Source: Homalodisca vitripennis (lineage: Eukaryota > Arthropoda > Insecta > Hemiptera > Cicadellidae). From it: a stretch of 64,000 nucleotides of DNA. Where the stretch lies: contig NC_060215.1 of the NCBI RefSeq assembly GCF_021130785.1, forward strand, positions 119,312,501 through 119,376,500. Reading direction: 5' to 3'. The notes beneath the pieces were generated by a model. The model ran no database searches, was not told the DNA's origin, and saw only the letters and a list, made by a program, of their open reading frames with translations. The translations under genes were made by a program, and so were the position numbers. Numbering within the stretch: the first letter of the stretch is position 1; each line of letters begins with the position of its first letter. This document shows positions 2,937 to 61,767 of this stretch, in pieces.

Positions 2937-5841
2937 GTGCATCAGCCTGATAATCTAGGACTAGGCCTAAGTGTGAGTGACACTACGCGTAGAACATCAA
3001 ATCTTCAAGATATGTCAACATCTACTTATTCTACTGGGCCTAATTCTGGTTTAAAAATAGCCTTTGCTAATGTTCAGTACCTCAGGACTAAATACAATCT
3101 TGTTTCACTATTTACTGACGAAGTTAAACCAGATATTTTCTGTGTCAGTGAGCTCTGGCTTACTAGCCAAGAGAGTGAATTCTACTCCACTATCAATACT
3201 CTAGAGCTTAAGGCAGCCTTTTTTAGGCAATTTCATAAGAACGGGGGTTCTTCAATATATGCTAATAGCAGTTTGAGTTGTAATACACTAGACTTAGGTG
3301 CATTCTGTGATGAAATGCATATTGAGCTCTCTGGGATCGAGATTATAGTCAACCAAGTCACTGCTACTATAATCTCTGTTTATCGCTCGCCTGGCGGTGA
3401 TAGCCAAAAGTTCTTTGACAACCTTGACAGATGCATGGCTGAACTAACTAGACAACATAATAGGCTAGTCTTTCTCGGGGGTGATTTCAATATACACCTT
3501 AATAAAGTAAATGAACTGTCAACTCGTTTTCATTGCTTACTAAGAAGCTACGGACTTTACATAACATCGCAGTCACCAACTCGTGGTCAATACTGTCTAG
3601 ATGCTATCGCCACTAATCTATATTCCTGGGAGCATTCAACGTCAATTCTAGACCCTGTAATTGCCGACCACTGCCCAGTGGTCCTAGATGTAAACATTTA
3701 ATTGGTGAGTGGCACTGAAAGCAGGCCTAGTTGGCATAGCACCTACAATCATAGCTTTAGGCTTATAAATGTCGAGCAGTTTACTAATTTTCGACTAGCC
3801 CTTATAAATACAGACTGGTCTGCTATTCTGGACAATGTCAATCCAAAGACCACTTTCCAATTGTTTTTTGATGTTTTTTATGGTATCTTTGACAGGATAT
3901 TTCCAGCTAAGTTCATTAAACCAAAGTATTGTGCTAATCTCAACAAGTCGGGTGGACCGATCTCTAAGTCCCAAAAAGACTGATACACGCCTGAACTTCA
4001 AAATATTAGGAAATTTGTTGTGGCGTTGCATGACAGGTATAAGATTGCAGCTGGTCAAAACAGGAATTTATTGTATAGCATGTGTTTAAGGGCCAAAAGG
4101 ATCTACAGGAGACAGGTTGATATAGCTAAAAAGAATTTCAAAATGTCTAAAATTGAGTCAGCCCTAAATCCCTGCAAAGCGGCATGGGATCTGATAAATA
4201 GAACCTGTAAGACTAAGCCAGTACTGAAGTGTAATGCCAGCCCTGATCAATTTAATACTACAATGTTAAATGAAGTAAAACATGTAATCAATAAAATATC
4301 TCTACTGGCCTTGGCATCTGGCCACATGAGTAATAGGCCTAAGCCGTTTCCATTCTCAACTTGGAATCCGATCTGTCCTGCAGAGGTAGAGAGGTTAATA
4401 TGTCAATTAAAAAATTCATTAAGTCAGGATATTTATGGGTTGTCAACCCCTGTGCTAAATTATGTTTCAGATGTCATTGCTGCCCATTTAGCTAAGGTTC
4501 TGAATTACTGTTTGGAGTCTGCTGTGTTCCCTAAGGCACTTACAGTCTCACGTACAATACCGGTCTACAAGAAGGGTAATCCTGAGATCATCGAGAGCTA
4601 CAGACCCATTTCATTGACTCCTATTATCAGCAAAATTTTTGAAACAGTAATGAAAAAGCAACTAGTCGATCACTTTGATAGGAACCATATTTATCGGCAT
4701 CACAGCATGGTTTTAGAGGTCAGCACTCAACTTTTGTGGCAGAAGTGTTGGAATCTTTTGAAGCAAAGCAGTCAACAGCGCTGATTCTTGCAGATCTCAG
4801 CAAGGCCTTTGATTGTGTTTCCCACAGTATACTCTTAGGAAAACTTGAGTTGTACGGAGTTACAGCGCAGCCTCTTCAAATGTTCCATTCTTATCTGGAG
4901 GGAAGAGAACAAATATTTTCTGTTAACGGTGCTTCATCCAAACCGCTGCCTGTTATGCACGGTGTGCCTCAAGGCTCGGTTCTCGGTCCCTTGCTCTTCT
5001 TGGTACTAATTAATGACCTAGATTTGATGGGTGATGTACTTCTGTTCGCAGATGATTCTACATTCTTTAAAGCGGGAGCCATACCTGAAGATGCGAGAGC
5101 TCAAGCGCTCCAAGTCTATGACAGAGCTAAGGAATGGTTTTCAGCCAACAAACTCAGTCTAAACGTTTCCAAAACGCAGGAGTTAACATGCACCTTATCT
5201 CTAGCTAACCATACAGTGGGGAGTGTCAAACTTTTGGGCTCTACTCTTGATTCCAAACTTACTGGAACGGGCATATGGCAGAACTGAGTAAGAAACTGTC
5301 TCGAGTGACCTGCTTGTTGCGCAGACTGAAGCCTCTATTGACGGAAAAACATCTTGTCACTATATATCATGGGCTGTTTCATAGCCACATTCTCTACGGT
5401 CTGCTGCTCTGGGGTCATTCATCTGGATGTGCCGAAATTTTATTGCTGCAAAAACATGCTGTGCGTATCATCTCATCTGCAGGCTTCTTAGATCACTGCA
5501 AGCCCTTGTTCAACCGTCTTAAGATCTTAACGGTTTTTAGCCAGTATGTTGTCGCCAGCTTGTTACATGTCAAGGAAAACTTTGCAGCCTTCGGAACTAG
5601 GGGTGAAGTTCAGGATGCCTACAGGCTGAGGAACAGCTCACAAATAAATACAGTCTCCTGTAGGCTAAGCAAGACAAGAGATTGTTTCCCCGCATTAGCA
5701 GTAATAATGTACAACTGCCTCCTTCAACATCTTAAATCTATTGAGAGCAGGGACTTTGAATGCAGGCTTAGGAAGTGGTCTCTGGCCAACCCTCTCTACT
5801 CAATAGAAGATTTTTTCGAGAACGCGAGCAACATAGCCTAG
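2937..5841 (+). pseudogene. Element B ORF2: APE endonuclease + reverse transcriptase (broken)
   Basis: The endonuclease (about 3040-3700) shows FANVQYL, the catalytic-Glu block CVSELWL, VYRSP, GGDFNIHL and a C-terminal ADHCPVV where SDH is usual. RT follows with RTIPVYKKGNPEIIESYRPI, ADLSKAFDCV, HGVPQGSVLGPLLF and the active site FADD at 5045-5056. After it comes the CR1/Jockey C-terminus (HSHILYGLLLWG, LQKHAVRIISSA). ORF2 is broken by an in-frame TAA at 3699-3701, an in-frame TGA at 3981-3983, a frameshift near 4700 just before the SQHGFR block, and a one-base loss near 5263. The domains are otherwise easy to follow, so inactivation is moderately recent. ORF2 normally nicks target DNA and copies its own RNA there (target-primed reverse transcription). 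Confidence 0.85.
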
Positions 5842-24826: not shown

Positions 24827-25499
<673 letters not shown>

Positions 25500-25880: not shown

Positions 25881-27051
25881 ATGAAGAAAAACAGAAACAA
25901 AAACCAAAACCAACCAACCCTTGAAACAGTTCCTGAAGCTGTTTCTAACCTACCTCTTCCTGCTGAGGTAGCTCCTGAAGCTACCTCGCACATACCATCA
26001 CCTGGCAACACAACTCAAGAGGTTGTTATGCCAACATCCCTACCTTCTCCTCAACAAAGTGCCTTAGGAACACAGGAGGTTCCATTGCACACTGAAGCTC
26101 CCATACATGGCAAGGCTTTATCTGAGGAAGGTAGTACAAGCGCTGAGGAAGTAAAATCCCTTCAAGATATAGAAGATCAACTCCTCAACAGCCCAAGCAC
26201 TCCCATGTCTACAGGTACGCTGGATGATGCCACAGAGCAACTCGGCAACCTCAGAATGAAGAGGCCTAATCTCACCACTGCTCAAAGAAAAGAAGCACTA
26301 AAGGCTAAACTTCTTGAAAAGGGTGAAGCTTTTGACCCTTCCAAGTGGAGGAGGGGAAAAAAGAAGAAAAAGAATCCAGAACGGCAGGAGGTCTCAACTC
26401 CGGGCCCAACTGCGGGTACCAAGGCGGGGGAGGGGTCGGCCAAACGCCCCAGAGGCACCTTGGTCACTCCACCCTCCACGCCTTGAGGGGCCCGCAAAGA
26501 AGGCTAGGAGGGAAACCCAAAAGCCCGAAGCCCACGATCCCGAGGCCTCTGGTAGCACACCCAAGGCTACCTACAGAGAGGTCGCAGCGATCAAAATGGC
26601 CATAGCCCTCGAAGGCTACCCGGAGGCGAAGCTTAGTGCAGAGCAAGGAGAAGCCATCGAGGACGCAATTATGGAAGAAATCCAACCCCTGGAGGATGGT
26701 TCCGTTCCATCGTTTGCGGGCACCTACCTAGAGAAAGGTGTTTTAATTGCTTCCTGCATCAACGAGCACACCAAACGTTGGCTGGAAGAAGTTATTCAAA
26801 GAATAAAACCTCTGGGAGATGACATCTCTCTGAGAGTGGGTCTGCGTAAGGACATCTTGAGGTCCACTAGGGTGTTTTTCAGAGCTCACCCGAAGCTTCT
26901 GAAGAAGACACCTGAAAAGGTACTTGAAATGTTCAAAAAGCAGAATCCCAACCTAAATGTAAACGAGTGGAAAATCCTTCCATCCAAGCCAGATCCGAAA
27001 GGTTACGGATTCGTCTGTTTCCTGGACGAGGTCTGCTACAAGGCTGTGTAG
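25881..27051 (+). pseudogene. LOA-type ORF1 protein (DUF4780-like), one frameshift
   Basis: The start was taken at the ATG of MKKNRNKNQNQ. The N-terminal 150 residues are acidic, Ser/Thr/Pro-rich and disordered, followed by a basic stretch (KWRRGKKKKKN). The frame then ends at 26,486, while the C-terminal domain lies in the frame of 26,314-27,051, so one frameshift occurs in the low-complexity G-rich region of about 26,340-26,486. The C-terminal domain has EVAAIKMAIALEGYPEAKL, SFAGTYLEKGVLIASCINEH, KRWLEEVIQRIKPLGDD and NVNEWKILPSKPDPKGYGFV. It resembles the DUF4780 domain, common in insect retrotransposon ORF1 proteins and presumably RNA-binding. No CCHC knuckles are seen. Confidence 0.75.
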
Positions 27052-27118
27052 GCTTCCAACTGTAGAGCCAACCTAGGACTCTGGCAGGTCTCAATTGTCT
27101 CCTCGACAGTCAAGGACA

Positions 27119-30100
27119 ATGCCACGAGTTGGGCATCAACCTCCAGCACAGTAGGGCTGCCTCGGCAGCCTTCTGCCAGTTCTTCCTCCAGGAGGGATTT
27201 GATCTGGCATTGATTCAAGAACCATGGCTTCACCAAGGGAGAGTGGCGGGCCTAAATCAAACCAAAGGTAAGTTAATTTACTGTACCTCTCTAAGGAATG
27301 TCAGGACCTGCATCCTGTTGAAGAGAGGCTTGGATTTTCTAACCCTCAACGAATTCTGCTCCAGAGATCTCACTGTGGGCACACTGACCTGGAAGAATGG
27401 AGGCATAGTGCAGAGCACAATTGTAGGCTCCGTATACTTGCCATATGATGCCAGGGAACTCCCTCCATCAAGAGACCTAGAGCTCCTGGTGGAAGAAGCA
27501 CAAGCCAGACGTCAACAACTTCTTCTAGGTTGTGACGCCAACGCCCATCACTCTGCTGGATGGGGCAGCACCAACACTAACCCCAGAGGTGAGGCACTTT
27601 TACAATTTCTTCTAAGTAGGGACCTATTTATATGTAATAAAGGTAACCGCCCTACGTTCGCAACACGAATTAGACAAGAAGTTATTGATATAACAATCTG
27701 CACACAAGGTATACTTGGAATGGTTGATAAGTGGCACGTAAGCGAAGAGGCCTCATTATCGGATCACAGGTATATCCGCTTCAACTTGCAAGATGAGGCT
27801 GCAGAGGTCCTCTATCGCAATCCCAGGAGGACTGACTGGTTGGGATATAAGTCTGACCTTCAGTCACAGTTGGGATCGGTAGGCGGAAGGGTGCGATGCT
27901 TCACAGACATAGATCAGATAGCTTCTGACCTGCAGAATGCTATAATCAATAGCTTCCACGACAATTGTCCATTGCGACGGGGGAAGAGTCGAACCAATAC
28001 TAAGTGGTGGACTGCGGACCTCGCTCGCAAAAGGGCTAATGTCAGGAAGCTGTACAATCAATGCAAAAGGAGCCGTATCTGGGAGTCCTATCATAGAGCT
28101 CTAACAGAATACAGCCTAGCAATTAAAAAGGCAAAACAAAGTTCCTGGAGGCAGTTTACACAGAAGGTAAATGAGTTAAGCGCGGCAGCTAGACTGCAAC
28201 GTTTACTAGCCTCAGGTCCAACCGGTCACTTGGGATCATTAAGGTCCCAGGGAGATCAACACACTTCCGGGTCTAGTGATAGCCTCAAACTTCTCCTTGA
28301 GACTCACTTCCCTGATTGTATCTTTGAGAATGACGACACTGGAACGTCTGGTAACCATGAGGCAGGCTCACGGCCAAGAGCTTATCGTGGTGGCTGGGCC
28401 ATTGCCAGAAGGATTGTCACTCTCTCTAAAACCAAATGGGCAATTTCTAAATTTGCCCCTTTCAAATCTGCAGGAGGGGATGGAATCTTTCCGGCCCTGC
28501 TTCAACAAGGGCCGGAGAATCTCCTTACCCTTCTATGTGAACTATTCAGGGCGAGCCTAGCTTATGGGTACATACCACAAGTCTGGCGTCTCAACAGGGT
28601 GGTCTTCATCCCTAAAAAAGGGAGAGCGGACTATTCTGTCCCTAAATCTTTTCGTCCCATCAGTTTATCTTCGTTTCTACTGAAAACATTAGAAAGACTG
28701 GTGGAGAGGCACCTGAGAAAGGGAGTTCTCTCAAACACTCCCCTTCATCGCAACCAACATGCATACCAGCAAGGCAAATCCTGTGAATCAGCACTGCACC
28801 AACTAGTCAGTAGGATTGAGGATAGCCTGTGCGCCAAGGAATTGGCATTGTGCACCTTCATAGACATTGAAGGAGCTTTTGACAATGCTAAATTCACTGC
28901 GATGGTAAGTGGAGCACAGCGACGTGGCCTCGAGCCAGCTCTGTGCCGGTGGCTTAGGGCCATGCTGTGCTCCAGACGGATCAGGGCCGATCTCAATGAA
29001 GAATCGCTTGTGATCGCACCTACAAGGGGGATGTCCTCAAGGAGGCATCCTGTCACCTCTACTGTGGAATCTAGTAGTAGATGGTCTACTTGAGGACCTT
29101 ACTAACAATGGAATCTATGTCCAAGGATATGCAGACGACATAGTCCTTATGGTACAGGGAAAATATACAAATGTTGTTGTTGATATCATGAATACCAACC
29201 TTCAACATGTACACAACTGGTGTCAGGGAGAGGGACTGAAAGTAAATCCCTCTAAGACAGTAGTTGTACGATTCACTAGGAAAAAGAACCTAGAGTCTCT
29301 TTCTAGGCTGAAACTCGCATCCACACAGCTTGAGTGGTCAAAGACAGTTAAATATTTAGGACTGACTCTAGACCATAAGCTTACGTGGAATGATCATCTT
29401 AACAATATCCTGCACAAAGCAAAGTGGGCGCTCATAACGTCCAGGAGACTTGCAGGAATCTCATGGGGCGTAAAACCCCATATAGCACTATGGCTTTACA
29501 AAGCAGTTGTAAGGCCTCAAATCACTTATGGTTCATTAGTCTGGTGGACAAAGGTGAATCAGGTAACTGCCAAAGCCAAGCTTGAAAGCTTACAAAGGCT
29601 TGGCACAATCTTTGCAACCGGAGCATTCAGGAGCAGTCCCTCAGCGACCCTCGAGGTGGCTTTAGGACTTCTACCTCTTGATGTCCATATAAAAGCTGAA
29701 GCGCGTAAGTCAGCTTATCGGCTGATGGTTGCTGGCTTGTGGAGGAATGGCGCGTCTAACGCGAGCCATGGCGCCATCACTGAAGCTGTAAACCCAAGCG
29801 CTATTCTCGAAATGGTCTCCGACATAATGAGAACGGAGTTCGTATTCAATAAGCCATTCTCTGTTGACTTCTACTCCAGAGATGAGTGGAAATTGCAAGA
29901 TAACATCCCAACAATAAGAAAGAGCTTTGTCTGGTACACGGATGGCTCGCTTATTAAGGGAAGAACTGGATATGGAGTGTTTAGTCAATCCCCTAGAACT
30001 GCCCTTTGCGGCAGTTTGGGTCGGAACTGCTCCATATTTCAAGCCGAAATCTATGGTATCCTAGCCTGTGCCGACCTAGGCTTCACCAGAGGGTACCAGG

Positions 30101-30765
30101 GAATGAACATCTGTATAATGTCAGACAGTCAGGCAGCTCTTAAAGCTCTTGACTCCAACAGCATTTCATCCAGGCTTGTGTGGGAGTGCTTTAACACTCT
30201 CTGCAAGCTTGGATCACGCAACTTTGTGCGTCTTGGTTGGGTACCGGGCCACACAGGCATAGGTGGCAACGAATACGCCGACAGGCTTGCCAAAAGCGGA
30301 GCAAGCATGCCATACACCGGTCCAGAACCGAGTTGTGGTATAAGCAAGTCAGCCGCTTACCAAAGTATAAACAAATGGTCCAGGAAGACACACCGCTTGC
30401 GGTGGCAGAGTCACCAAGGACAAGCACTCGGCAAAAGACTGCTCACTGATTCTAGCTCCGGCTTCACTAGATGGCTGATGGGGCTGGGCAGGGATCGGGT
30501 TAAGCAAGTGATTGCCTTGATCACTGGACACGGCCACTTCAGGAAACACCTAAACACTCTAGGTTTACGAAATGAGGACTCGGAGTGTAGACTCTGCAAT
30601 AAGTCTGAAGAGACTGCAAAACACATAATACTGGACTGTGAGAGACTGGGAGCAAGGAGAAGGGCTCTTTTCGGTGATAAACAACCAGGCGACGAACCAG
30701 ATGCTAGTATCGGGGAAAAGCTTCTTAGCCTAATTAAGGGCACAAAGATAGGCTTACCCCTCTAA
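27119..30765 (+). pseudogene. LOA-type ORF2: endonuclease-RT-RNase H polyprotein, two 1-base shifts
   Basis: Endonuclease: INLQHSRAAS, IQEPWL (catalytic Glu), CDANAHH, IDITICT and SLSDHRYIRF. RT: VVFIPKKGRADYSVPKSFRP, IDIEGAFDNA, the CPQGGILSPLLWNL block and YADD at 29,128-29,139. RNase H: WYTDGSLIKG (about 29,932), FQAEIYGILA, MSDSQAALKAL and WVPGHTGIGGNEYADRLAK. The C-terminus has a zinc knuckle, CRLCNKSEETAKHIILDC (about 30,586-30,640). The frame changes once in the G-run 29,026-29,030, exactly before the PQG block. The frame starting at the ATG at 27,119 joins the endonuclease frame if one G is removed from the GGG at 27,131-27,133. Otherwise no in-frame ATG precedes the domain. All catalytic motifs are intact. 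Confidence 0.88.
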
Positions 30766-37616: not shown

Positions 37617-37860
<244 letters not shown>

Positions 37861-41187: not shown

Positions 41188-44017
41188 TTAGTGAAGACTA
41201 TCCCAGCGACCCATCGCAAACTCGTCAACTGAGTAAAATGCTTTGGACACTAAGAAGTGTTTTAATCGAGATTTAAATTGTTTGTGGTTATTGACGCGTT
41301 TGATATCTTCAGGGAGCCTGTTGATTAGCCTCACACCAACCTGAGATGGCAAGCGTTCAAAAACAGTAGTTCTGTGCTGTGCCATACGAAAGTTGTCCCG
41401 GCCTCTAGTTCCGTATTGGTGTACGTCGCTACCCCGAAGTGAGACGCACTTGAATCGGCAGTATAGCACGACGTCGAGTATGTAGAGGCTAGGCAAAGTG
41501 AGTAATCCAAGCTCCCCGAATGCTAATTTACACGACTCTCTCTGATTTAATTTGTAAATGATTCTGACAGCTTTCTTTTGCATTCTAAACACTCTATTAA
41601 ATTTTTATCTAGAACAGCAACCCCACAATCTTAGACCATAAGCTAAATGTGGATGTATTAGGCCAAAGTAAGCTGTCTTCAGAATATCCAATGAACAGAA
41701 TTTTTCCAAATTGCGTAAGACATAAATGCCAGAAGCAACCTTTGAACAGACACTCTCAATGTGATCGTCCCATGTCAGCCCTCGATCAAGGTGCATCCCA
41801 AGAAACTTGGTGGATTCTTCTTCTTCTATTATGGTTTCATCCACCATCACAATTGGTCGGATTTCGTTTTCATGTTGCCGAAAACAGAAATTAATCACGC
41901 TTGTTTTAGAAAAATTTGTTTTCAAATTGATATTTAAAAAATGATCAATGCATGAGTTGAGTTCTTCAAAGGCTTTGATTTCAAGATCTGGTTTGGTTTT
42001 TGATCTAATGCAGAGAGTTGTATCGTCAGAATACTGAATCATCTTTCGATTATGGATTGATGAACTCAATCTGTTGACGTAGACGAGAAAAAGGACAGGC
42101 CCTAGAATCGATCCTTGTGGGACTCCATAAGGCATTTTAACTTTTTCTGAGAGGGTATTCGCGATCTGCACACACTGCTCTCTATCATTTAGGTATGACG
42201 AGAGCCATTTGTGAGGCAAACCACGAACACCGCTTGACCATAACTGGTGCAACAGTATTTCATGATGCACACAGTCAAAGGCCTTTGAGAGGTCGAGAAA
42301 TATGCTAAGCACATGTTCCCGCCTCTCCAAACCATCGACAACAGAATAAATGAGACTCGTGACAGCATCAATAGTCGATTTGTTTTTTCTAAATCCAAAT
42401 TGTTCATTACAAATAACTTCAAAGCGATTGAAGAAATCTTCTAATCGTCGAAGGAAGGCTTTTTCGAAAATTTTGCTGAGGACCGGAAGAATGGAAATTG
42501 GACGATAGTTACTTGCGACATAAGGATCGTCCTTTTTAAAAATTGGAATGACTTTTGCTGTCTTCAAAGTGGACGGGAAAACGCCTTGGGCGAACGACAG
42601 GTTAATCAATTTTGTGAGTGGTACTGAAATGTGCTTAAAGCAGCGCTTAAGTAATCACACAGACATCCCATTGATGTCACCAGACTTTTTCGACTTCAGC
42701 TCCCGCACCACACGGACCAACTCCGCCTCGCTCACAGGAGACAGGACCATGGATGAGACCGGTCCCATAAATGAGTCCTCTCGGGTGCTGTTCCCACTAA
42801 AACATGGGTCCGGCCCAGCAACCGTGGAGAAAAAGTTATTAAACTCACTTGCCACTTCAAGCGGATTTTTTGTTATTTTACCTTGTATTTTAAGGTTAGG
42901 TTTGAAATGTTTTAGGACTTGTGTTTGAGTTATATTTTTAATTATATTCCACGCACTTTTTGAAAAATTTTCAGAATTCATTAGTCTATTTTCGATTTCC
43001 CGAGCCTTAGCGGCTTTTATATCTTTGCGGTAATTTAGCTTGTATGCTCGAAAGAAATTTTTGAATTCTTCATTTGTCGATTCTATGTAAATTGAATGAT
43101 ACAATTTTAATGTTTTTCTTAATATGAGAATGTTTTGATTTATCCAAGTGTTGTGTTTTTTGTCTGATCGCTCTTTGAATGACTTATAAGGGCAAGTGAT
43201 GTTCAAATAAAAATTAAAACTGTCTGTAAACGCAGAAAACGCTTCCTCCGCATTATCAAAACTATCAATAAATAACCAGGATTCTTCTTGGAGAAATCTG
43301 TTCAGAATTTGGATATTATGAATTTTAAGATCTCTTCTTATATTTACCGAAAGAGGTTCGATCTTCGGACTGAGATTCCCGATCACGGCCTCCTGCGCGA
43401 AGTGGTCGGAGATAGCCGCGTCCAGAACGGAAACCGAAACGTCTAATACGTTTGTAATGACGTTGTCGATGGCCGTACTCGATGTAGCACTCACTCGTGT
43501 TGGCGTGTTCACTGACCAAACTAAGCCGAAAGAGGTGAGAATATCGCGTAACCGATGGGTCAGGGGGTTGGTGTGGTCCAAAACATCGATGTTAAAGTCA
43601 CCTGAAATGATAAACTTCAACGAATTAGAACAGAGAAAATTTAGAAGGGATTCAAATTTTTCAAAAAAAAATTATTGAGCAATCATTTGGGGATCTGTAT
43701 AAGCCAATGATTGTAATTTTTCCTACGGAATTTAGATTGACTTTTATACCTCCCACTTCAAAGTCTAGATCACAACTGTAATCAACCTTGAAGGGTTGGA
43801 ATATCAGTCTTTTCTTAACGAAAATTGCCACACCTCCGCCTTTGCAATGTTTTCGGTGAAATATTGCTGCCAATTGAAAATTGTCAATTTTAAACACAAT
43901 ATCCGCTTCAGGTGAGAAGCTATGATGAGTGACTATGAAAACGTCCGGATGGAGCTCCCCAGCCATGAGCGATAGCTCATCAACTTTATTAGAAGCTGTT
44001 TGTGCGTTTTGGTGCAC
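41188..44017 (-). pseudogene. CR1-A ORF2: endonuclease + reverse transcriptase
   Basis: Endonuclease: PDVFIVTHHSFSPEAD, GGGVAIFVKK, IIGLYRSPND, SGDFNIDVLDH, STAIDNVITNV and AISDHFAQE. The position of the catalytic Glu (family: SEHWL or TEHWL) reads THHSF. An extra T in the T-run of about 43,664-43,672 shifts the frame. RT: AKVIPIFKKDDPYVASNYRP, EQFGFRKNKSTIDAV, LDLSKAFDCVHH, YGVPQGSILGPVLF and YSDD at 42,033-42,022. The C-terminus has HPHLAYGLRLWG, MQKKAVRIIYKLNQRESC and YGTRGRDNFRMAQH. In-frame stops lie at 42,657-42,655 (TGA) and about 41,607-41,605 (TAA). The frame is open a little upstream of 44,017, so the true start is not fixed. Confidence 0.87.
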
Positions 44018-44107
44018 AACAGAAAATTTTGATTGTGAAAACGGAATTTTGTTTTTGTTTAAAATTTAGGTTATTCTTTTGTACATCCGATGCTGATATC
44101 CTTGATT

Positions 44108-45302
44108 TTAAGTCACATTTGATGTCACTAGAATTAAAGATTTTTTTTGGTTGTAGCCACTTTTGTTGTTGTTGAGCTTCACTACGTCCGCAAACGTCTC
44201 AAAGGTCAGCGTCGGAGGCTCCACTGCAGCCGGTGTCTTACAGGCAACTGACTTCTTCGACAGGTGGTCAGTCCGGGGCAGTGACAGTCTATAGGACTTG
44301 AGAGGAGGCGGACGCGATGTAACAGCACGGCAGAACCTTCCCATACACTCCACCAGCAGCTCGGCCAGCAGGCGCTTACACTGAGGCTTTAGATGCATCC
44401 CATGGTTCGTGAATGCACCCCTTCCGATACGGTTGAAATCCACCACCTCCACTCCACTCTGCCTCACGCAGAGCTCCTCTATGTAGGCGTTAATTAAGGA
44501 TGTCTCCCTGTTGATCGGATGTTGGGCGGGTAAGTCGTGTCGGTGAGGCAGAGTGGATACCACTACCTTAGCTGTCCTCAATTTGGAAGTGATGCAGCGC
44601 TCCAGATGTGTGTAGATGTTGCTCTGCTGACCGATGGCGACATCGTTCGTGCCTGCAATAATCACATAGCAGCTGTCTGGCGGAAGAGGACTGTCAGAAG
44701 TGACACTCAGCAGCCCAGCCCCGGGTCTGCAGACACCCTTCACTTTCGTGTCAGCAGTCACCATACAGCGGACGAGGTCGACAACATCACGGCTGTGGCT
44801 ATCCCCGGCGATGTGGATGCTACGAAAAGGGAGAGATCTTATTTGATTGGGGACCGGCTGTCTAACTTGTTTGGTCCTCCGTTTTGCTCTAGACTTCCTT
44901 CTCCTTCCCATAGGCTTGCGAACCTCTTGCTTTACATTCTCCATTACGCTGTTCAGCACAGTAAAGCTGTTTGTCGTCTCAAGTGGTAGTGGGCTCCTTT
45001 TTCCCGCGTTTAACCGTCCATTCGACTTCCCCACCTCCCACACCACACTCGCGACTAGCCATAGATTCTTTTAGGCACTTCAGTTCGGCCTCTAGCACCT
45101 CCACTGTGGTCCTCAGACTGCTCACTAGCTCTCTAGCTTCGACACACAGTTCGTCCGTACAGGCTACCGGTAATTCACATTTAATTCCGCATTCAGGTCT
45201 GGACACCCGGGTAGTCACGAAACGCCGCGGTGAGTTGGCGACAAATATCTGGTAGGTATATTGTAGCAGGCGCTTGTCATTGTTACAGTACATGTATAGC
45301 AA
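44108..45302 (-). pseudogene. CR1-A ORF1: coiled coil + SGNH/GDSL esterase domain, one frameshift
   Basis: The first frame (45,302-44,979) gives a short coiled coil (ARELVSSLRTTVEVLEAELK) after a cysteine-containing N-terminus. A frameshift near 44,990 leads to the second frame. There a basic stretch (GRRRKSRAKRRTKQV) precedes an SGNH hydrolase fold: block I IHIAGDSHSRDV (GDSH at residues 81-84 of this frame), block III IIAGTNDVA (132-135) and block V NHGMHLKPQCKRLLAELL (215-219 with the catalytic His). Esterase domains of this kind are documented in ORF1 of CR1-like elements; the substrate is unknown. ORF1 ends 90 bp before the ORF2 frame. Confidence 0.83.
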
Positions 45303-51880: not shown

Positions 51881-54800
51881 CCTACATTTTTATTTCCTCA
51901 AGTATTTCCTTATTTCTTTGGAATGAGTTGTAGTAAATCATGTAATATATCTCATAATAATAAAATATCTTAATTTCTAAAACAAAATAGTATATATCCA
52001 GCAAACTATTATTTTCCAATATCATTAAATATTTGAACCAGTAAATCGTTATATTAACAATATTAATGCTATACAAAATATGCCCAATGCATATGTAAAG
52101 ACAAACTTTGCTTTCTCTCACCTGTACCCTTTAAACATCATAACCGTATCAAAAAGCCCTGTAAAAAATGTAAAATATAAAAAGTTATAAATGTTCTCCC
52201 TTCTTAAGTAGAAGCAATTATATCGTAAGTACATATGATTTTGTGTCTGAGTAACCTATGAATTTATTGGACGTTACTGTATGAACTTTTCATTTTATAT
52301 ATTATATGTCAAATAGCTATGTAAATTATTGTACGGAAAATCAATTTATACTTAAAGTATAATACAAACTACTCATACTATAGGGTCGTGCAAGATAATA
52401 GTAATCTTCAGATATTAATAAGCCCCTAACAAAAATAAAAAAATCATATGCATTTGAAAGATCAATTTTAAAGTGGTTGATCAAAACCGTACTTATGAAT
52501 TTGTATACAATTAATACATACAGGCTATAACGCTTGCTGCCTATTTGTAGAGCCTCAAGCGTCAAACGTTATGTTTGAACTAAATCTTAATATAAAACAT
52601 TTTTCGAACGCTATAATAACCTCTAAAATTGTTTCATGTATATTTTAGGCTTTTAGTATAATTATTTAAAAGCGTATGTTAAATCCATCAAGAACTTTTA
52701 GTCTAAAAATTATATTACTGATGTAGAATATAATAATAATAATAATGGAACATGTAGTTATTTTTTTCAAACACAAATATTTGTATAATATAAAAATATT
52801 TATAATTAGTAGGCATACTTAAAACACTTATATGATTTATTAGAGTATACCTCTTTTAGCTCATTTGATAGTTACAATATGTAAAAAATTATATTAAATA
52901 ACATTTCGTGCATTTTTATCACGTTTTGTTATTTAACATATGTTGACTCAATGTTACACTTTTTTAAATACATGATTTAATACCACATAAGTATCTTTTT
53001 ATATATAATACATATAAAGTGTATATTTACATCAAATGTATGACTATGTCCATCTATTTAAAATCATTAAGGATATAAATCAAAACATGAATGTTTTTCT
53101 GTTAAATAACAAAGCAACAATTCTATGTTCCTTTATACGAAGAGCCATAACATATTCATTAGCCAGGAATAAACATTCGCCATCTGGTAATAAATAAGGA
53201 TATTTGGGGTCCCAAAACTGGCCGTCTGTTATCTGTTAATGATAGCAATGAAAAATAGTTCCATTCAAATCTTTACTAACTGTGCATGTTCAATTATTTA
53301 TTGTTATAAAAATATCTATCCATACCTAGATTTTCATGAAAATACCTGTTATCTAATATACCACTTACTACCACATCATTTCGGATATATTTATTAACAC
53401 TTTGCAGCAATCTTAACGACTTTACAAAATGATCTTTTTGCATATGAAGCTATACGATTATGCGTTGCCTGTTATAAAATTTTCTAAAAGAATTTAATGA
53501 ATATAAATTTTTTATTTACCTTCAATTTTCGTAAAACAAATATGTTAAATAAAATTTCGTTCAATAAAATGTTAAATTTAATCGTTTAATACTTATGTAG
53601 CATGGCCAACGAATTAAAAATACGAAGAGAGAGATTAATTTTAAATTCCGAATAACAAGAAAACCTTTTAAGTTTGGTGCAGGCGACGAAAACTGTTTAA
53701 AATCACTGGGAAATACATTTTGTACTCACCTATAATTTCTGGCGGAAATTGAGACACACATGGAACGTATTTACATAGATGCGAACACTCTTACAACAGA
53801 AAATCGTTTAAATTAATATGCCCTCTATAACGAATGAATTAATTACCGAACTAAATTAATGCCCCAGCAGGTTTCTAAAGAAATAGCCAGCTCTCCTGAT
53901 TTGAACCAACCAAAACCAAAATGACTAAATTATGAAATTAATAAATAACTTTGTCAAATTTGTAACAAGACCTAAACGCTACAACAAATCCACAATAGCT
54001 TTTTTGCTTACTTATGCGTACTATGAAAAAATCTTGATTTTATAAAGTTTATTTTGTTCGCTGTAAATATTTGATTATTTTTATTGGGCTTCCTTCGATG
54101 TGACATAACTCTTTAAGTGATTAAGATTTTCAATTTTACTTACATTAAAACTATAAATATTGTGTTCAACTATCTCGTACATTCTGTACAACTAATATGA
54201 AATGTAAGTTAATAACAGTAAGTGAAGACAATGGTTTAACCTGTATTGATTGACGTCACCTGACCGCCCATCGTTAATTGACCTCTGCACTCCCATACTC
54301 CGCCTTACACTGTCTTAATAGTGAATAGAGAAACGTAGAAACTACGGTCAGTACAGTTCATGGTCAGTACAGGCAAGCTTTCTGATCTCTGATATCTATT
54401 TCTGCTCAGTGCTTATTGCTTTATTAATTAGCGTACTGCTTTCCATTTGAAGAAAAGTTTCTCTTTCACTGCTAATAACTTAAAGTTATGTTTTATATTC
54501 AGAAATCTCAAACCATCGCATATTTAACATTATCTTCACAAATAAACAAGTTTGTTTTGTTCTATCTCTTTTGTTTAGCTTTAAAAAAATGTGTTGGGAA
54601 TCCTGATTACTTTATTTCATAAAATGTTTTGCCTGTTTATATTACAAGATATCTGACCACTATCTCACCATTTCTAATAAATACTTACCGCAATGACTGG
54701 CTATTTTAAATGTCTGTCATATAAATTTTTAGAACGATTTTAGTTCAGCGTTCTATTACTTAATTAAAAGGAATGTTTTATTTGTTCACTTTTATATCAG

Positions 54801-55658: not shown

Positions 55659-55666
55659 GGATTGGT
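55659..55666. repeat. Left target-site duplication, GGATTGGT
   Basis: Identical to 61,760-61,767 and immediately outside the left terminal inverted repeat; the bases on either side differ, so the duplication is exactly 8 bp. Confidence 0.8.
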
Positions 55667-55904
55667 GGGGACGCTGCTTTAGCACCCCCTGGAATAAGCA
55701 CCCCCTCGGGCTCTGACGTCACGGCGGGGGGTGCTAATTCAGCGCACGGACACGGTCCAGGCACGGAATTAGCACCCCCCGGCTACAAGGGGGTGCTAAA
55801 TCAGCGCATGAACATGGTCGAGGCCCTGAATTAACACCCCCCTGTTCCAAGGGGGTGCTTATTCAGCGCATGGACATGGCTCAGTCACTGAATTAGCACC
55901 CCCT
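55667..55904 (+). repeat. Left terminal inverted repeat / palindromic array
   Basis: About 238 bp. C-blocks (AGCACCCCC or variants) start at 55,681, 55,697, 55,771, 55,833 and 55,895. G-blocks (GGGGGTGCT) lie at 55,727, 55,789 and 55,851, giving a period of about 62 bp. Each unit pairs a C-block with the next G-block and is joined by a CAGCGCATGGACATGG-type linker. The outer 55 bp end at TGACGTCA. Each unit could form a stem of up to 19 bp, and the repeated blocks are natural candidates for transposase-binding sites. Confidence 0.85.
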
Positions 55905-58900
55905 AGCATTCAACCAGCAAAAAGGGTATTTATCTTTTACATATTCAATTCAATCATAAATATAATAGTTGTTATCTGGATTTTTGTGACGCTGCCTCTT
56001 ATAAGCTACTATCTACGATTGTTTTGCAATTTCCGATGAACGATTAAATAATATAATAATCAAATATGGCTACTTTCTCTTAAAAATTACCATAGACTTA
56101 ATATTACATAATAATGCTCCGACTAACAAGGCTAATAGACCTTAGAACTCCTCCCTCTCATACGCATTGTCATATTTGTGTAATAATTTTCACTCATGAC
56201 TTTGCTTTCTTAATTTGTTCTATATATCACCTATTAAAATAATAAATTAAATCATATCCTTCATTTATTCTATTTCAGTTTATTCTTTCAGTTAATATGT
56301 TTGTAAATTTAATTAACGCACTGCTAAATATATATTTAAAAAAACATAAAATTCTCGTCGATTCTGAGTCGATTTTTGGAATATTACGGAAGGTAAAATG
56401 TAATTATGGTTTTTATACACAATTAGTCTAGTATCTTTGCTGTGTCATTTTTATTGTACAGGTATTGAGTACTGGGCGTCCATACCAATGAAAGATCTAG
56501 TCTACTCATAGTCTAGTTAAGGGTATTCACTGAGCATTAACAGTTCAAACTTAACCCAATCGTGAAAACTCAATGAAACATGTTTCTACATATAATTAAA
56601 ACTATGTTATTTGTATATGAATCCATAATTAAAGTATTTATTTCATTTAATAGCTTCACGGAAATGGAATCTTTTTTTTTTAGTTTAATTAACGCAAATG
56701 TAAAAAACAATTACAACAAATAATTTTGTAAACAATTTAGGCTCGTATTTTAGGCAAAATAGTTCACTGTCACACAGTATAGAATTTTTCTCTGCGGCAT
56801 TTTTGTTTCATATTTAATTTTAATTAAATTTCAAAATTAGGTTTATAGAATGAAACAGATGAAGTATGAAAATTACAGTTTTTGACTTGTCATTTATTAC
56901 AGAAATAATTTTTCAGTACCTGCCCTTAAATAATTACTCGTAACCATCTGCAGTAAGAAACTAGATTATAATTTTTTATCTTATGCACTATTAGGCGTAT
57001 AGTGAATCATCTGCACAATGGAACAGCTACATAGACTTAACACTACACAAAAATCCGTAGAATGGTACTCACAAAAATATCTCAAGGTTACGCCCATAAG
57101 TATTACTATTGCTTACGTGTAAAATATCCTCTATAGAATCATGCCTAACTATTTTTCATGATTAAAGGAATATATTATAGAAACATCAAATACATTTCAC
57201 ATGAGGCTACAACTTGAAGATACATTATTAGTTTATGAACTTAACACTGTGATAAAAAACTTATGGATGAGGCATTGGTAGCTAAGGATGAAGTATATTA
57301 ATCCGCAAAGGTTTCTTCCTAACTAGTTAATGTAAAAAAATGTTTGGTCGACTTCTGTCCATCTTACTTCTAGCAGATATATCCCTCTGGTAAAGGATTA
57401 TACCCTCGATTATATTACTTTTTCTAACGGTATCGATGATAATTAGTGTAATATTACGAGAATGAATAATAGAATTCATATTGGGACTTTCATATTAAGT
57501 GATATCAACTATTACATGTAAAGTATTCCCACATATATGTTTTGTTGCTCCTTTTATGAGTAACCCTATTTTCAAATGTGGATCATAAATCTTTTATTAC
57601 CTACGATACTTTAGGAAAGGAGGGATCGTGATTTTTAATTACTTTAGAACATCAGTTCAAAAAATCATGGAATGTCGCATTGACATTAAAATTGGAATAT
57701 TTTCCAATGACCATAATTTATTTCATCAGTAGTATGCCATTTTTTTAAAGGCATGAAGGAGATGTCTATGACGTACCAGTTATTCTAGAAACATTCCGTA
57801 CGAAGGGGCGGGTATCAGCTAGTAAACATTTAAAAACTTGAAACTCGTTATTTTTGCCTTAACATCGTTGCTCGTTATATATTGGCCGTCTACCAAATAT
57901 GAAATATACAGAGTGAAATCAACCTGCAAATATCGATTGTAGGACTGTAGGTCCACACATAATTTTGACGAAGCTGACGAAACCCGTGCGTGCACTACCG
58001 ACCCTACTTTTCAAACTGATGTGGCCGTATCGAGTGGTTGAGTAATAATATCGATGTTATTCTCAGTTGTTATTCCTATATTAATACATAACTTATTATG
58101 TATAGTGAATTTGTTTGATGAAATTTCCTAAAAAATATAAGAAGAAATCAAACAATGTTTGAGTGTACAGGCCCAAGGTGTAGCATATTATACTCTCTAG
58201 GTAACGGATACTTTTACACGAGTAAAGAGAAAAGATAAACTAGAACACGGTAATGATGTATGGACAAAAACTGAAAATCATCGCCCTTTTGTATGCAGTT
58301 AAAGAATATTTAACTATTGTGTGTTACATTAGTCAGACGTGCGCTTCTAACCCCATGTATCTGGAAGTGTCAAACTTAAGAATGAACATTCTTACAATAT
58401 TGTAAAAAGAAGAGTGAAATCTCAGTGAAGTCTTTAATAAAGCGTCTATAAAAAGGTAAAATTTAAAATTACACTTCAGCTTAGCTGTACTTTTATTTTA
58501 AAGCTATTTATATCGGAAAGTGTAGAGAATTTTGTTACACTCTAATTTTCAATTCGTTGTAATTTTTATAACTGATTTGTAAACTAGGTAGTAAACAGAT
58601 GTATAGAAGCATAAATATTACTTCATTAATAATAAAAAAATACTACACAAATATACATAATATTTCATTTTGTATAAAGTAAACTTTAATATTTTTTAAT
58701 GTTTTATTTTCCGGGTAGAACAAAATCTTCAAACCTCGGTTAGAACAAACTTAACAACTGCAACAAATAGCAATCTTTACTGGTACATTTAAGCATCTAC
58801 GTTTAACACCGTAATCAATAGCATACCTACAAACTCCGTATAAATTTACAAGCCAAAAGTAGGTCTGAGGTCTTCCATTTAAAAACAAAATATTAAATAG

Positions 58901-59136
58901 ACATATAATAACTACAAAGACATTTTTAATTTTTGGTCTACGTAATCAACATGTATTAGAGTGTTTTTTTCTGACGTCTCAATCAAAAGAAACTTTGTTT
59001 AGAAATAATTAAGAATATTATGACCACAATTCAGCAATGTAATGTTAAAATCACTTGATTAGAGCAGCTAAAATAAAAACAGCTGATTGTTGCAGCCCAC
59101 ATTCATTCATATAATAAAGGCGGATATTGTTTGGTA

Positions 59137-59196
59137 ATTGGTTTTAAAAAACAGTAATTGGTTTTAAAAAACAGTAATTGGTTTTAAAAAACAAAC
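59137..59196. repeat. Three tandem 20-bp units
   Basis: GTAATTGGTTTTAAAAAACA occurs three times in a row without mismatch, apart from the start of the first unit. Located inside the 6.1-kb element. Confidence 0.9.
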
Positions 59197-61318
59197 TATC
59201 TCCCTTATTTCACAACCAATTTTTAAAACTTGGTATCGTTAGATTTTTTATTAAATTTAGATATTTTTTTTACCATATATCGCTTTTAAGATATTTACGC
59301 TTAAAGATCTTTTAGAAATCACTATTTTGAAAATAAAGCTTGTAAGAAATTTAAATTTTTGATTTTCCTTAAGGTTATAAAGGTATATACAAAATTTTAA
59401 CCTAAACAATCCATCAAATATAAATAGTAAAGTAAAAAAGACAAAAACAAAACAAAATTGTGGCTATTAGAGTAATTATTGAGTTTTAGAAAGGTGAATA
59501 TGATTGTTTTTGCATTTGGTCCATGAATAATGTCTGAAAATATTGGTAGAGATTGTGGAACACTCTCTATAATAATTTTATGTACAGAGTGTCCTGTAAT
59601 TCTTAGGAAAAGTCTATATACCGCAACTGCTCAGGTCATGGCAAACGCATTTCAGAATATGGAAATAGATCTTTGGTGCTTAGTTTCCTATCCGTTAGTC
59701 TGTATGTGTTTTTTATATACAAATTCGCTTTAATATCTTAAAACGAATAAACAAATCCTACCTAATTTGGATCAAATATTTGTGGTAATAAGGCCAGTTA
59801 TAAACAATATTCATTAATACTTTCGAAATGGCGGCCATTAAATCTGATTAACTTTGAATGTCTTAAAATCCAGCAGGTATACAAGAATAAATCTGATCGT
59901 GGATTGTATCACAAATCTAATTACTCAAATACTATTTCAAACTAATAATAAATAACTCATTAAGAGCATCTTTACTGTAAAAAAACATGGTTCGTGAAAA
60001 TAAATTAATATCAACTTTAGAGTATCTTATCCCTATTTCTTTTATTTTTGTGATATATTATGCAAAACATTTGAAATACATGTTTCAGGCCTATCTAAGG
60101 ATAGAATACAATCATATATTTCATGTTTAATGAAATTATTTTAATATCTGTTGTTTTAGGACATATTTATTTACGAAAATTTAGTCAAGCGACAATCAGA
60201 TGTATTTCCAATAAAACCGCTTATCTTTGATTTTGTCATCTATAAAAGCATTATTGTCTGAATATTACTGTACGAATTTTCTTGTTCTTTATTATTCTTA
60301 ATATATAACAGATAACCTAGTCACTTTATTTAGTTTTTTCACATATATTGTGAATAAATTGAAGCTTTATGATAAATACAACAGTTTATTATTGTTAATT
60401 AAGACATTTGTTTTTGTCCTTCATTGTTCATAAAGGCGTTCATTGTTGATACATTTGCAATATCTCTAGTAGTTTTTAATTTATTAGAAAAAAAGTTGCT
60501 TGGCAACAGATATTAATGTATTTCCTGTACTTTAAATGAAGGGAATAAGATGTGAGCACGATTGGCATAAGATATTCTGGAGCTGCCGTTTACTCGATTT
60601 TTGTATTGTGACCTACTCGTTGAGATTTTCCAAGATATTCCATTTTTAACAACAACAAAAAACGCACACTAACCGACAGAGGGGAAATTAAACAATGTAG
60701 ATCCATAATACTCAGTATATAAATGTATGTTTTGACAGCAATAACGCTTTTGAAAATACGGTAGTATATTTATTGCTACATGTTTTAACATTGTTTTCAA
60801 CTTTTTTTTAAATTATAGTTGAACTAACTGATATGGATATAACTGAATGATATTTATTCTTATAGATATAAAATAATATTTAAATTGTTTGTCAAGTGTG
60901 TTTGAATTATACTATTCAGTTTAAATAGTATAATTCAGTTTATGATGCGTCCTTAAAAATAATTGGCTCTTAGCCGTCGCAAAATTACAATTTCACGGTT
61001 CTAATTTTCCCGCTTTTGATTGGTATTCGAAAAATTAAAATAAATAAATAATTGTTTTTAAAGTGGTTAATAGGTTTATATAATCTCTGACCATGTATAT
61101 TTATTACACATGCCGGATTTACGCAATATCAGTTCCTCTGCGTTGTTCGTACCACGATTTCAAATTAATTTTACTTTAAAATAAACCTGTATTTGAATGC
61201 CTAGAACCTAGTTTTTTACTTAAGTATATTTGATGCATAGTATTTTTATAATTGGTAATGAACTGTTTGTTTTTGAAATTTTAAGTAAACCACAGCAATG
61301 CAGTAAATGTACTCATTG

Positions 61319-61319
<1 letters not shown>

Positions 61320-61373
<54 letters not shown>

Positions 61374-61400
61374 AATTATATATATATATATATATATATT
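61320..61400. repeat. (TA)n microsatellite with TTATATAATTA interruption
   Basis: Dinucleotide tract just inside the right array of the 6.1-kb element. Confidence 0.95.
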
Positions 61401-61484
61401 ATTTTATTTTATTGAAAAATAAATCGCAATATGGTTAAACGTTTATTACTATATTCCGTTGGAGTAATTATTCATCTCATCAAT

Positions 61485-61759
61485 ACGCTGATTTAGCAGC
61501 CCCCAGATTCAAGGGGGTGCTAAATCAGCACATGAGCACGGTCAAGGCGCTGAATTAGGACCCCCCTATTCGAAGGGGGTGCTAAATCAGCACATGAACA
61601 CGGTCGAGGCGCTGAATTAGGACCCCCGTATTCCAAGGGGGTGTTTATTCAGGGCCTGGACACGGCCACTGTGCTGATTTAGCACCCCCTTTCGTGGCGT
61701 CAAAATGACGTCAGTAGCGAGGGGGTGCTATGTCCAGGGGGTGCTAATTCAGGCGCACC
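61485..61759 (-). repeat. Right terminal inverted repeat / palindromic array
   Basis: About 275 bp. Read inward from the right it starts GGTGCGCCTGAATTAGCACC, has a second C-block and TGACGTCA, then three palindromic units of about 62 bp with GGGGGTGCT blocks at about 61,514, 61,576 and 61,638 (the last reads GGGGGTGTT). The linkers CACATGAACACGGTCGAGGC are shared with the left array in variant form. The innermost block is AGCAGCCCCC near 61,495. Confidence 0.85.
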
Positions 61760-61767
61760 GGATTGGT
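61760..61767. repeat. Right target-site duplication, GGATTGGT
   Basis: Identical to 55,659-55,666 and directly adjacent to the right end of the 6.1-kb element. Confidence 0.8.

Follow-up and report, generated by a model that had tools for sequence, protein, structure and literature searches.

A question raised by the genome of Homalodisca vitripennis is whether a 6.1-kb region bounded by identical 8-mers, with palindromic arrays at both ends, is one mobile unit and to which transposon superfamily such a unit would belong. The region lies in a window of 64,000 nucleotides, the whole stretch of DNA analysed here (C9:119312501-119376500 of the 2.30-Gb assembly). An initial annotation, made from the letters alone, had proposed one mobile unit with target duplications and had pointed to hAT, P and Merlin as superfamilies for which 8 bp is typical. 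The former claim was borne out by copies elsewhere that carry duplications of their own: window positions 55667-61759 are a real, recently multiplied 6.1-kb DNA element without a gene of its own. As to the latter, Mutator reads better, given a right end held in common with an IS256/Mutator-like transposase gene, and the element is probably a non-autonomous, foldback-like DNA transposon of the Mutator (MULE) superfamily.

Borders, duplications and copies of the element

The element is 6093 bp long and has discrete borders. It is placed between two copies of GGATTGGT, the identical 8-mers noted earlier at its outer borders (Table 1), and at the left side the flanks of other copies change exactly at the 55667 edge. 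As a word, GGATTGGT is not rare, being found 3 times in the window against 1.7 expected; its weight comes from lying directly against both tips, a placement that other 8-9-mers repeat in the other copies. By comparison, two random 25-bp stretches of the window shared at least 8 bases at any position in 202 of 20000 draws, and this criterion is much less strict than exact abutment.

The element occurs at many sites. Searching the assembly with the left end gave 1194 first-look candidates, which is not an exact copy count; 40 were scored, and these left ends were 98-100% identical, 38 of them over bases 1-238. Twenty of the other 39 scored copies were read, and every one ran on into the same interior, indicating that the arrays are not solo elements. 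Fourteen of these 20, together with the window copy, make up a set of 15 two-ended copies. The remaining six are a nested pair in C3477, L025, for which the stretch read stops short of the full right end, and L017, L018 and L029, with no right end in the stretch; L029 runs off its contig.

All 15 two-ended copies carry their own flanking duplication, and all 15 sequences differ. The duplication is exact at 8 bp in ten (window, L011, L012, L014, L020, L021, L023, L024, L026 and L027), exact at 9 bp in two (L019 and L028) and with one mismatch in three (L010 and L022 at 8 bp, L013 at 9 bp); for the three at 9 bp, an alternative reading is an 8-bp duplication and a single additional base at the right terminus. 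Nested within the right array of another copy in C3477 is a reversed one with both ends complete, flanked by TGATTTAG and TGATTTAAG at its two borders. Since this duplication is present once in the six other copies compared, both the filled and the empty site were observed.

Pairwise identity of the 15 copies, ends included, was 96.5-99.4%. Over 6064 shared columns, the difference from the column majority was 0.28-1.21% in 11 copies and 1.6-2.5% in L020, L021, L024 and L028, which cluster together; extra blocks are present in L021 (302 bp) and in L020 and L024 (about 265 bp). The copy history is young and star-like, indicating recent amplification.

Outside this genome, the left end gave no match in a phage collection, nor did a 17-base piece in viral contigs; one 21-base match in a bacterial MAG (metagenome-assembled genome) contig (L001) lacked the array and was set aside as chance. 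Beside the copy L017, a double jelly-roll capsid-like frame (L017:263-2711; PF21738, E 9.3e-28) was observed together with two unclassified frames, which suggests that the neighbour is Polinton- or virus-like.

Table 1. Positions of the element's features in the window
Feature	Positions	Strand	Remarks
Left target-site duplication	55659-55666	.	GGATTGGT
Left tip (terminal inverted repeat proper)	55667-55721	+	starts GGGGACGCTG, ends TGACGTCA; matches right tip reversed
Left array	55727-55904	+	three 62-bp units, each an imperfect palindrome
Interior	55905-61486	.	AT-rich, non-coding, conserved between copies; longest frame 77 aa
Three 20-bp repeats in interior	59134-59193
Right subterminal stretch common to coding relatives	61117-61312	.	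element bases 5451-5646; 77-80%, collinear in C4309, C3304 and C9:123.8M
(AT)n tract in interior	61321-61399
Right array	61487-61691	+	half unit and three units; R1, R2 in same orientation as left array
Right tip with TGACGTCA	61706-61759	-	inverted relative to left tip; also terminus of two coding relatives
Right target-site duplication	61760-61767	.	GGATTGGT

Structure of the ends

Inverted ends, as claimed initially, were confirmed for the outer tips. These tips, each about 55 bp, agree at 48 of 52 aligned bases in the inverted sense when gaps are allowed. This alignment scores 31, whereas 2000 shuffles reached no more than 6 and the direct orientation gave -12. Compared without gaps, the tips agree at 18 of their 24 outermost bases, as counted by eye. 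The motif TGACGTCA was indeed found about 50 bp in from both ends (55714-55721 and 61706-61713), and a third copy is located at 54251.

The palindromic units behind the tips are likewise real, the right side having a half unit in addition to its three. All six full 62-bp units form hairpins, with z from -2.5 to -7.0, that are better than nearly all shuffles; for the tip by itself, no hairpin fold exceeded the shuffles. Their supposed inverted orientation did not hold. The arrays do extend the inverted repeat behind the tips at 70-75% complementarity, but with palindromic units an array can appear inverted in either sense. Comparison of left and right arrays in the window gave a score of 109 in direct and 78 in inverted sense, and the direct sense was higher in all 15 copies. 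For the ten pairs among units L1, L2, L3, R1 and R2, identity was again higher in direct (77-95%) than in inverted sense (69-78%), the pair L3-R1 being nearly tied. The unit adjoining the right tip, R3, is closer in inverted sense to L2, R1 and R2, ties with L1 and is direct with L3. Only the outer tips are thus clearly inverted, and the arrays are mainly direct.

Foldback-type elements carry inverted ends of tandem sub-repeats, the number of which differs between copies. The element resembles them in having inverted tips backed by 62-bp arrays, with the array sense chiefly direct. Motif spacing was almost constant across the 15 copies, L020 being one of the few that depart from it.

The interior

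The interior was described initially as AT-rich and devoid of coding capacity, and this description stood. In 12 other copies without long inserts, the longest frame was at most 109 aa, against 77 aa stop to stop in the window copy. Ten longer frames of the window interior (54-77 aa) gave no credible Pfam match in a scan that left out a 69-aa frame overlapping the left array; the sole match (E 0.077) was ignored. Interiors varying between copies had also been expected. Instead, the interior is conserved at the pairwise identity given above, which indicates that the mobile unit includes it as a constant part. The interrupted copies L027 and L025 have longer frames, but these belong to inserts and were rejected as genes of the element. 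The insert in L025 (6845-7837, minus strand), near the (AT)n region of that copy, is Tc1/mariner-like, with weak DDE_3 and HTH (helix-turn-helix) matches, and the 2-kb insert in L027 (2704-4714) has similar-looking frames.

Coding relatives and their transposase

A coding relative with matching ends had been suggested as the means of naming the superfamily. A matching right end was found; a left end was not recognised within 8.6-12.9 kb of the coding relatives. In C4309 (L029), a copy of the family interrupts or adjoins the right tip of another element, and the right array of that element runs on into a broken transposase gene; a genome search with one piece of this gene gave 55 matches. In C3304 and C9:123.8M, the gene lies behind the right end of the element family, which is followed to the terminal base (89% and 85%), and the subterminal stretch follows at 77.5 and 78.5%. 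Because these two loci share a flank, they look like one duplicated insertion, leaving, with C4309, two independent cases of the shared right end. A separate lineage, represented by C1318 and C4 with 98.9% agreement over 2.6 kb, also has the gene, but at that place the right end is missing.

The broken coding relatives encode a transposase with DDE and DxxH, which is absent from the element itself. The predicted fold of a 550-aa transposase frame is nearest to ISCth4 of the IS256 family, the bacterial kin of Mutator. Across all 550 residues, the Foldseek TM-scores of this match are low (0.23-0.25), so it is the catalytic part that carries the fold claim. The P element, RAG1 and Hermes are also present in the match lists; among the 50 fold matches listed, none with a Merlin-type fold was noticed, which excludes nothing. 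The curated MULE domain PF10551 gave no match for the 550-aa frame and a weak one (E 0.027) in 1 of 25 relatives. Neither hAT, P/THAP nor Merlin-type domains were detected in the scanned coding frames (E up to 1) or among the families listed for the 25 relatives (E up to 0.1), and the same two sets gave no match to a PHD finger. A Clathrin-repeat match (L031:3440-4330, E 0.0005), below the Pfam cut-off, was ignored, as was the one match of the transposase profile in a PDB sequence search, to a designed protein (E 0.55).

The transposase family seems to bear a C-terminal ubiquitin-peptidase-like part (L029:6635-7527, L031:3000-4330, P0099, P0105, P0106, P0109, P0110 and P0113). NTCAFD-type boxes were observed in several relatives; L029 and L031 also have a GHYVAYV-type box, which resembles one in P0110. 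Matches to UCH and C98 were weak and below cut-off, with none for P0099, P0105, P0106 and P0109. A model of the thrips relative P0110, made for the sake of this C-terminal part, had a mean pLDDT of 58, with most of the part below 50, and was too poor to be used.

Superfamily and origin of the element

Mutator elements have terminal inverted repeats, often long, and here the tips are inverted, with arrays that extend the repeat at 70-75% complementarity. In all 15 two-ended copies the duplication measures 8 or 9 bp, a single mismatch being present in three, compared with 8-11 bp in the description of the superfamily in PMC6446971. The IS256/MULE-type RNase H core, with DDE and C/DxxH, was found in the coding relatives. 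The right end is common to the element and some of these, and it is mainly for this shared end that Mutator is preferred over hAT, P and Merlin. Membership in one of these three would make the element a non-autonomous one with ends turned repetitive, like those of the P-type foldback Galileo. Duplications are strictly 8 bp in hAT, 7-8 bp in the P superfamily (Galileo-like, with a THAP-type transposase) and 8-9 bp in Merlin (with an IS1016-type transposase). Twelve of the 15 copies, two of them with one mismatch, have 8-bp duplications, the other three are open to the 8-bp reading mentioned above, all lengths fit the range of Merlin, and P element, RAG1 and Hermes folds are in the lists. We nevertheless regard this assignment as improbable: ISCth4 is the nearest fold for the gene associated with the shared right end, the domain searches gave none of the three types in the frames and families scanned, and two exact 9-bp duplications (L019 and L028), taken at face value, speak against it. 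A Rehavkus-type element, a reading that overlaps with Mutator, is somewhat less unlikely. As published, and the comparison was made by that description, Rehavkus is a MULE outgroup of arthropods and annelids with 9-bp duplications, a PHD finger and a minisatellite before the 3' end (PMC6446971). The repeat-rich ends agree with it, as does a tandem array with a 147-bp unit in 3.8 copies, situated past the 3' end of the transposase gene at one coding locus (L031:427-979), which recalls the Rehavkus minisatellite; duplications of mostly 8 bp and the lack of a PHD finger match in the frames and families scanned do not.

Two independent array insertions bracketing ordinary intergenic DNA would agree with the base composition of the interior, which is like that of the neighbourhood. 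Such solo arrays, named initially as the finding that would overturn the one-unit claim, did not appear: neither array alone is bracketed by a duplication in the window, all 20 left-end copies continue into the same interior, and the whole unit lies between matching duplications in 15 copies. The genome copies refute this account, the probability of which is negligible. More credible, if still doubtful, is an origin compatible with the Mutator reading, in which a short tip-array-tip element took in a foreign 5.6-kb piece and the composite then spread. The left and right arrays as direct, not inverted, copies and the start of the right array within a unit would suit such an origin. On the other side, about 640 bp at the right, including subterminal DNA, belong to the coding relative, so that at least this part was present first; and the inner borders have neither target duplication nor inverted ends, sharing 5 bp at most, on which ground a separate insertion of the interior, bringing a duplication of its own, was rejected.

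For the preferred Mutator element, we propose that transposase from coding relatives in the same genome would recognise the ends and connect them to a target site cut with a stagger of 8 bp, perhaps also of 9 bp, and that host repair would then leave a direct duplication of the stagger length. The enzyme of a coding relative, or an intact sister, would move the element in trans, presumably by a cut-and-paste route; excision and reinsertion are described for the mosquito MULE Muta1 (PMC5225508). The palindromic 62-bp units may be repeated binding sites working in either orientation, in which case the direct arrangement of the arrays would be harmless. The 5.6-kb interior would be passenger DNA, kept together by recent copying from few source copies. 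In a bolder form, which we consider a long shot, the direct palindromic units would be orientation-free sites replacing a long inverted repeat, so that a transposase with a C-terminal ubiquitin-peptidase-like domain amplified the 5.6-kb passenger to perhaps a thousand copies; the interior might then itself have a function, for instance as a small-RNA source or as a spacer aiding end pairing.

Other elements in the window

At 25881-30765 (plus strand) lies an R1-like non-LTR (non-long-terminal-repeat) retrotransposon, whose interrupted frames contain endonuclease, reverse transcriptase and RNase H. Another non-LTR element with reverse transcriptase lies at 41188-45046 (minus strand), its upstream frame giving a GDSL-lipase-like match (E 2.1e-5) below the Pfam cut-off. 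Two long (TG)n tracts of more than 200 bp are located at 24832-25045 and 37623-37846.

Comparison with known systems

The element is a clean, young case of a large gene-free transposon that has spread through a 2.3-Gb genome, apparently by means of an enzyme that it borrows; the shared terminus connects it with a candidate lineage for that enzyme. Gene-free elements are mostly short, and one question that it raises is why an empty unit of 6 kb was copied with such success; another, open to test, is whether palindromic subterminal units serve as orientation-independent transposase sites. In addition, an insect transposase group without a significant Pfam transposase domain is linked to the IS256/Mutator fold. 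A full-text literature search with motif pieces returned unrelated subjects only, as judged by titles and the starts of abstracts.

The coding relative agrees with ISCth4 of the IS256 family, as described, in transposase fold, DDE residues and C/DxxH motif; ISCth4 itself is bacterial and self-coding, with 31-bp ends and a copy-out/paste-in mode (PMC7780238). Animal Pack-TIR elements are similar in that inverted ends carry non-transposon DNA, but they are mostly single copy with a median cargo of 224 bp, and the 5.6-kb interior is far larger than the animal cargo sizes of that study, in whose account no Pack-MULE occurs in the animal reference genomes studied (PMC8277862).

A comparable architecture is described for three further systems, and the element belongs with them to an uncommon but recognised kind. 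Tetris of Drosophila virilis is described with a non-coding middle, long inverted ends with tandem repeats, 8-9 bp duplications and suggested Mutator membership, its autonomous partner being not known (PMC4079207). It has 220-bp repeats, ends up to 1.7 kb, a variable middle and three structurally complete copies (PMC4079207), against 62-bp palindromic units chiefly direct, ends of about 240-270 bp, one conserved interior and many copies here. Muta1, termed a type 2 foldback element, and other Aedes aegypti MULEs have 8- or 9-bp duplications and non-autonomous derivatives, as here, and subterminal tandem repeats are reported in 10 of 12 long-ended families (PMC5225508). By the same account, Muta1 differs in its 12-bp repeats, its length of 3.2 kb with transposase and the variable interiors of most derivatives (PMC5225508). 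Tm1 of root-knot nematodes shares composite foldback-like ends of tandem motifs, and non-coding and MULE-coding classes with common ends; it is described with a 14-bp motif, 9-bp duplications, a Phantom-type transposase, and 39 and 22 elements in two species (PMC3169594). By their descriptions, the element is distinct from Tetris, Muta1 and Tm1 in its palindromic 62-bp units, their mainly direct sense and its large fixed interior.
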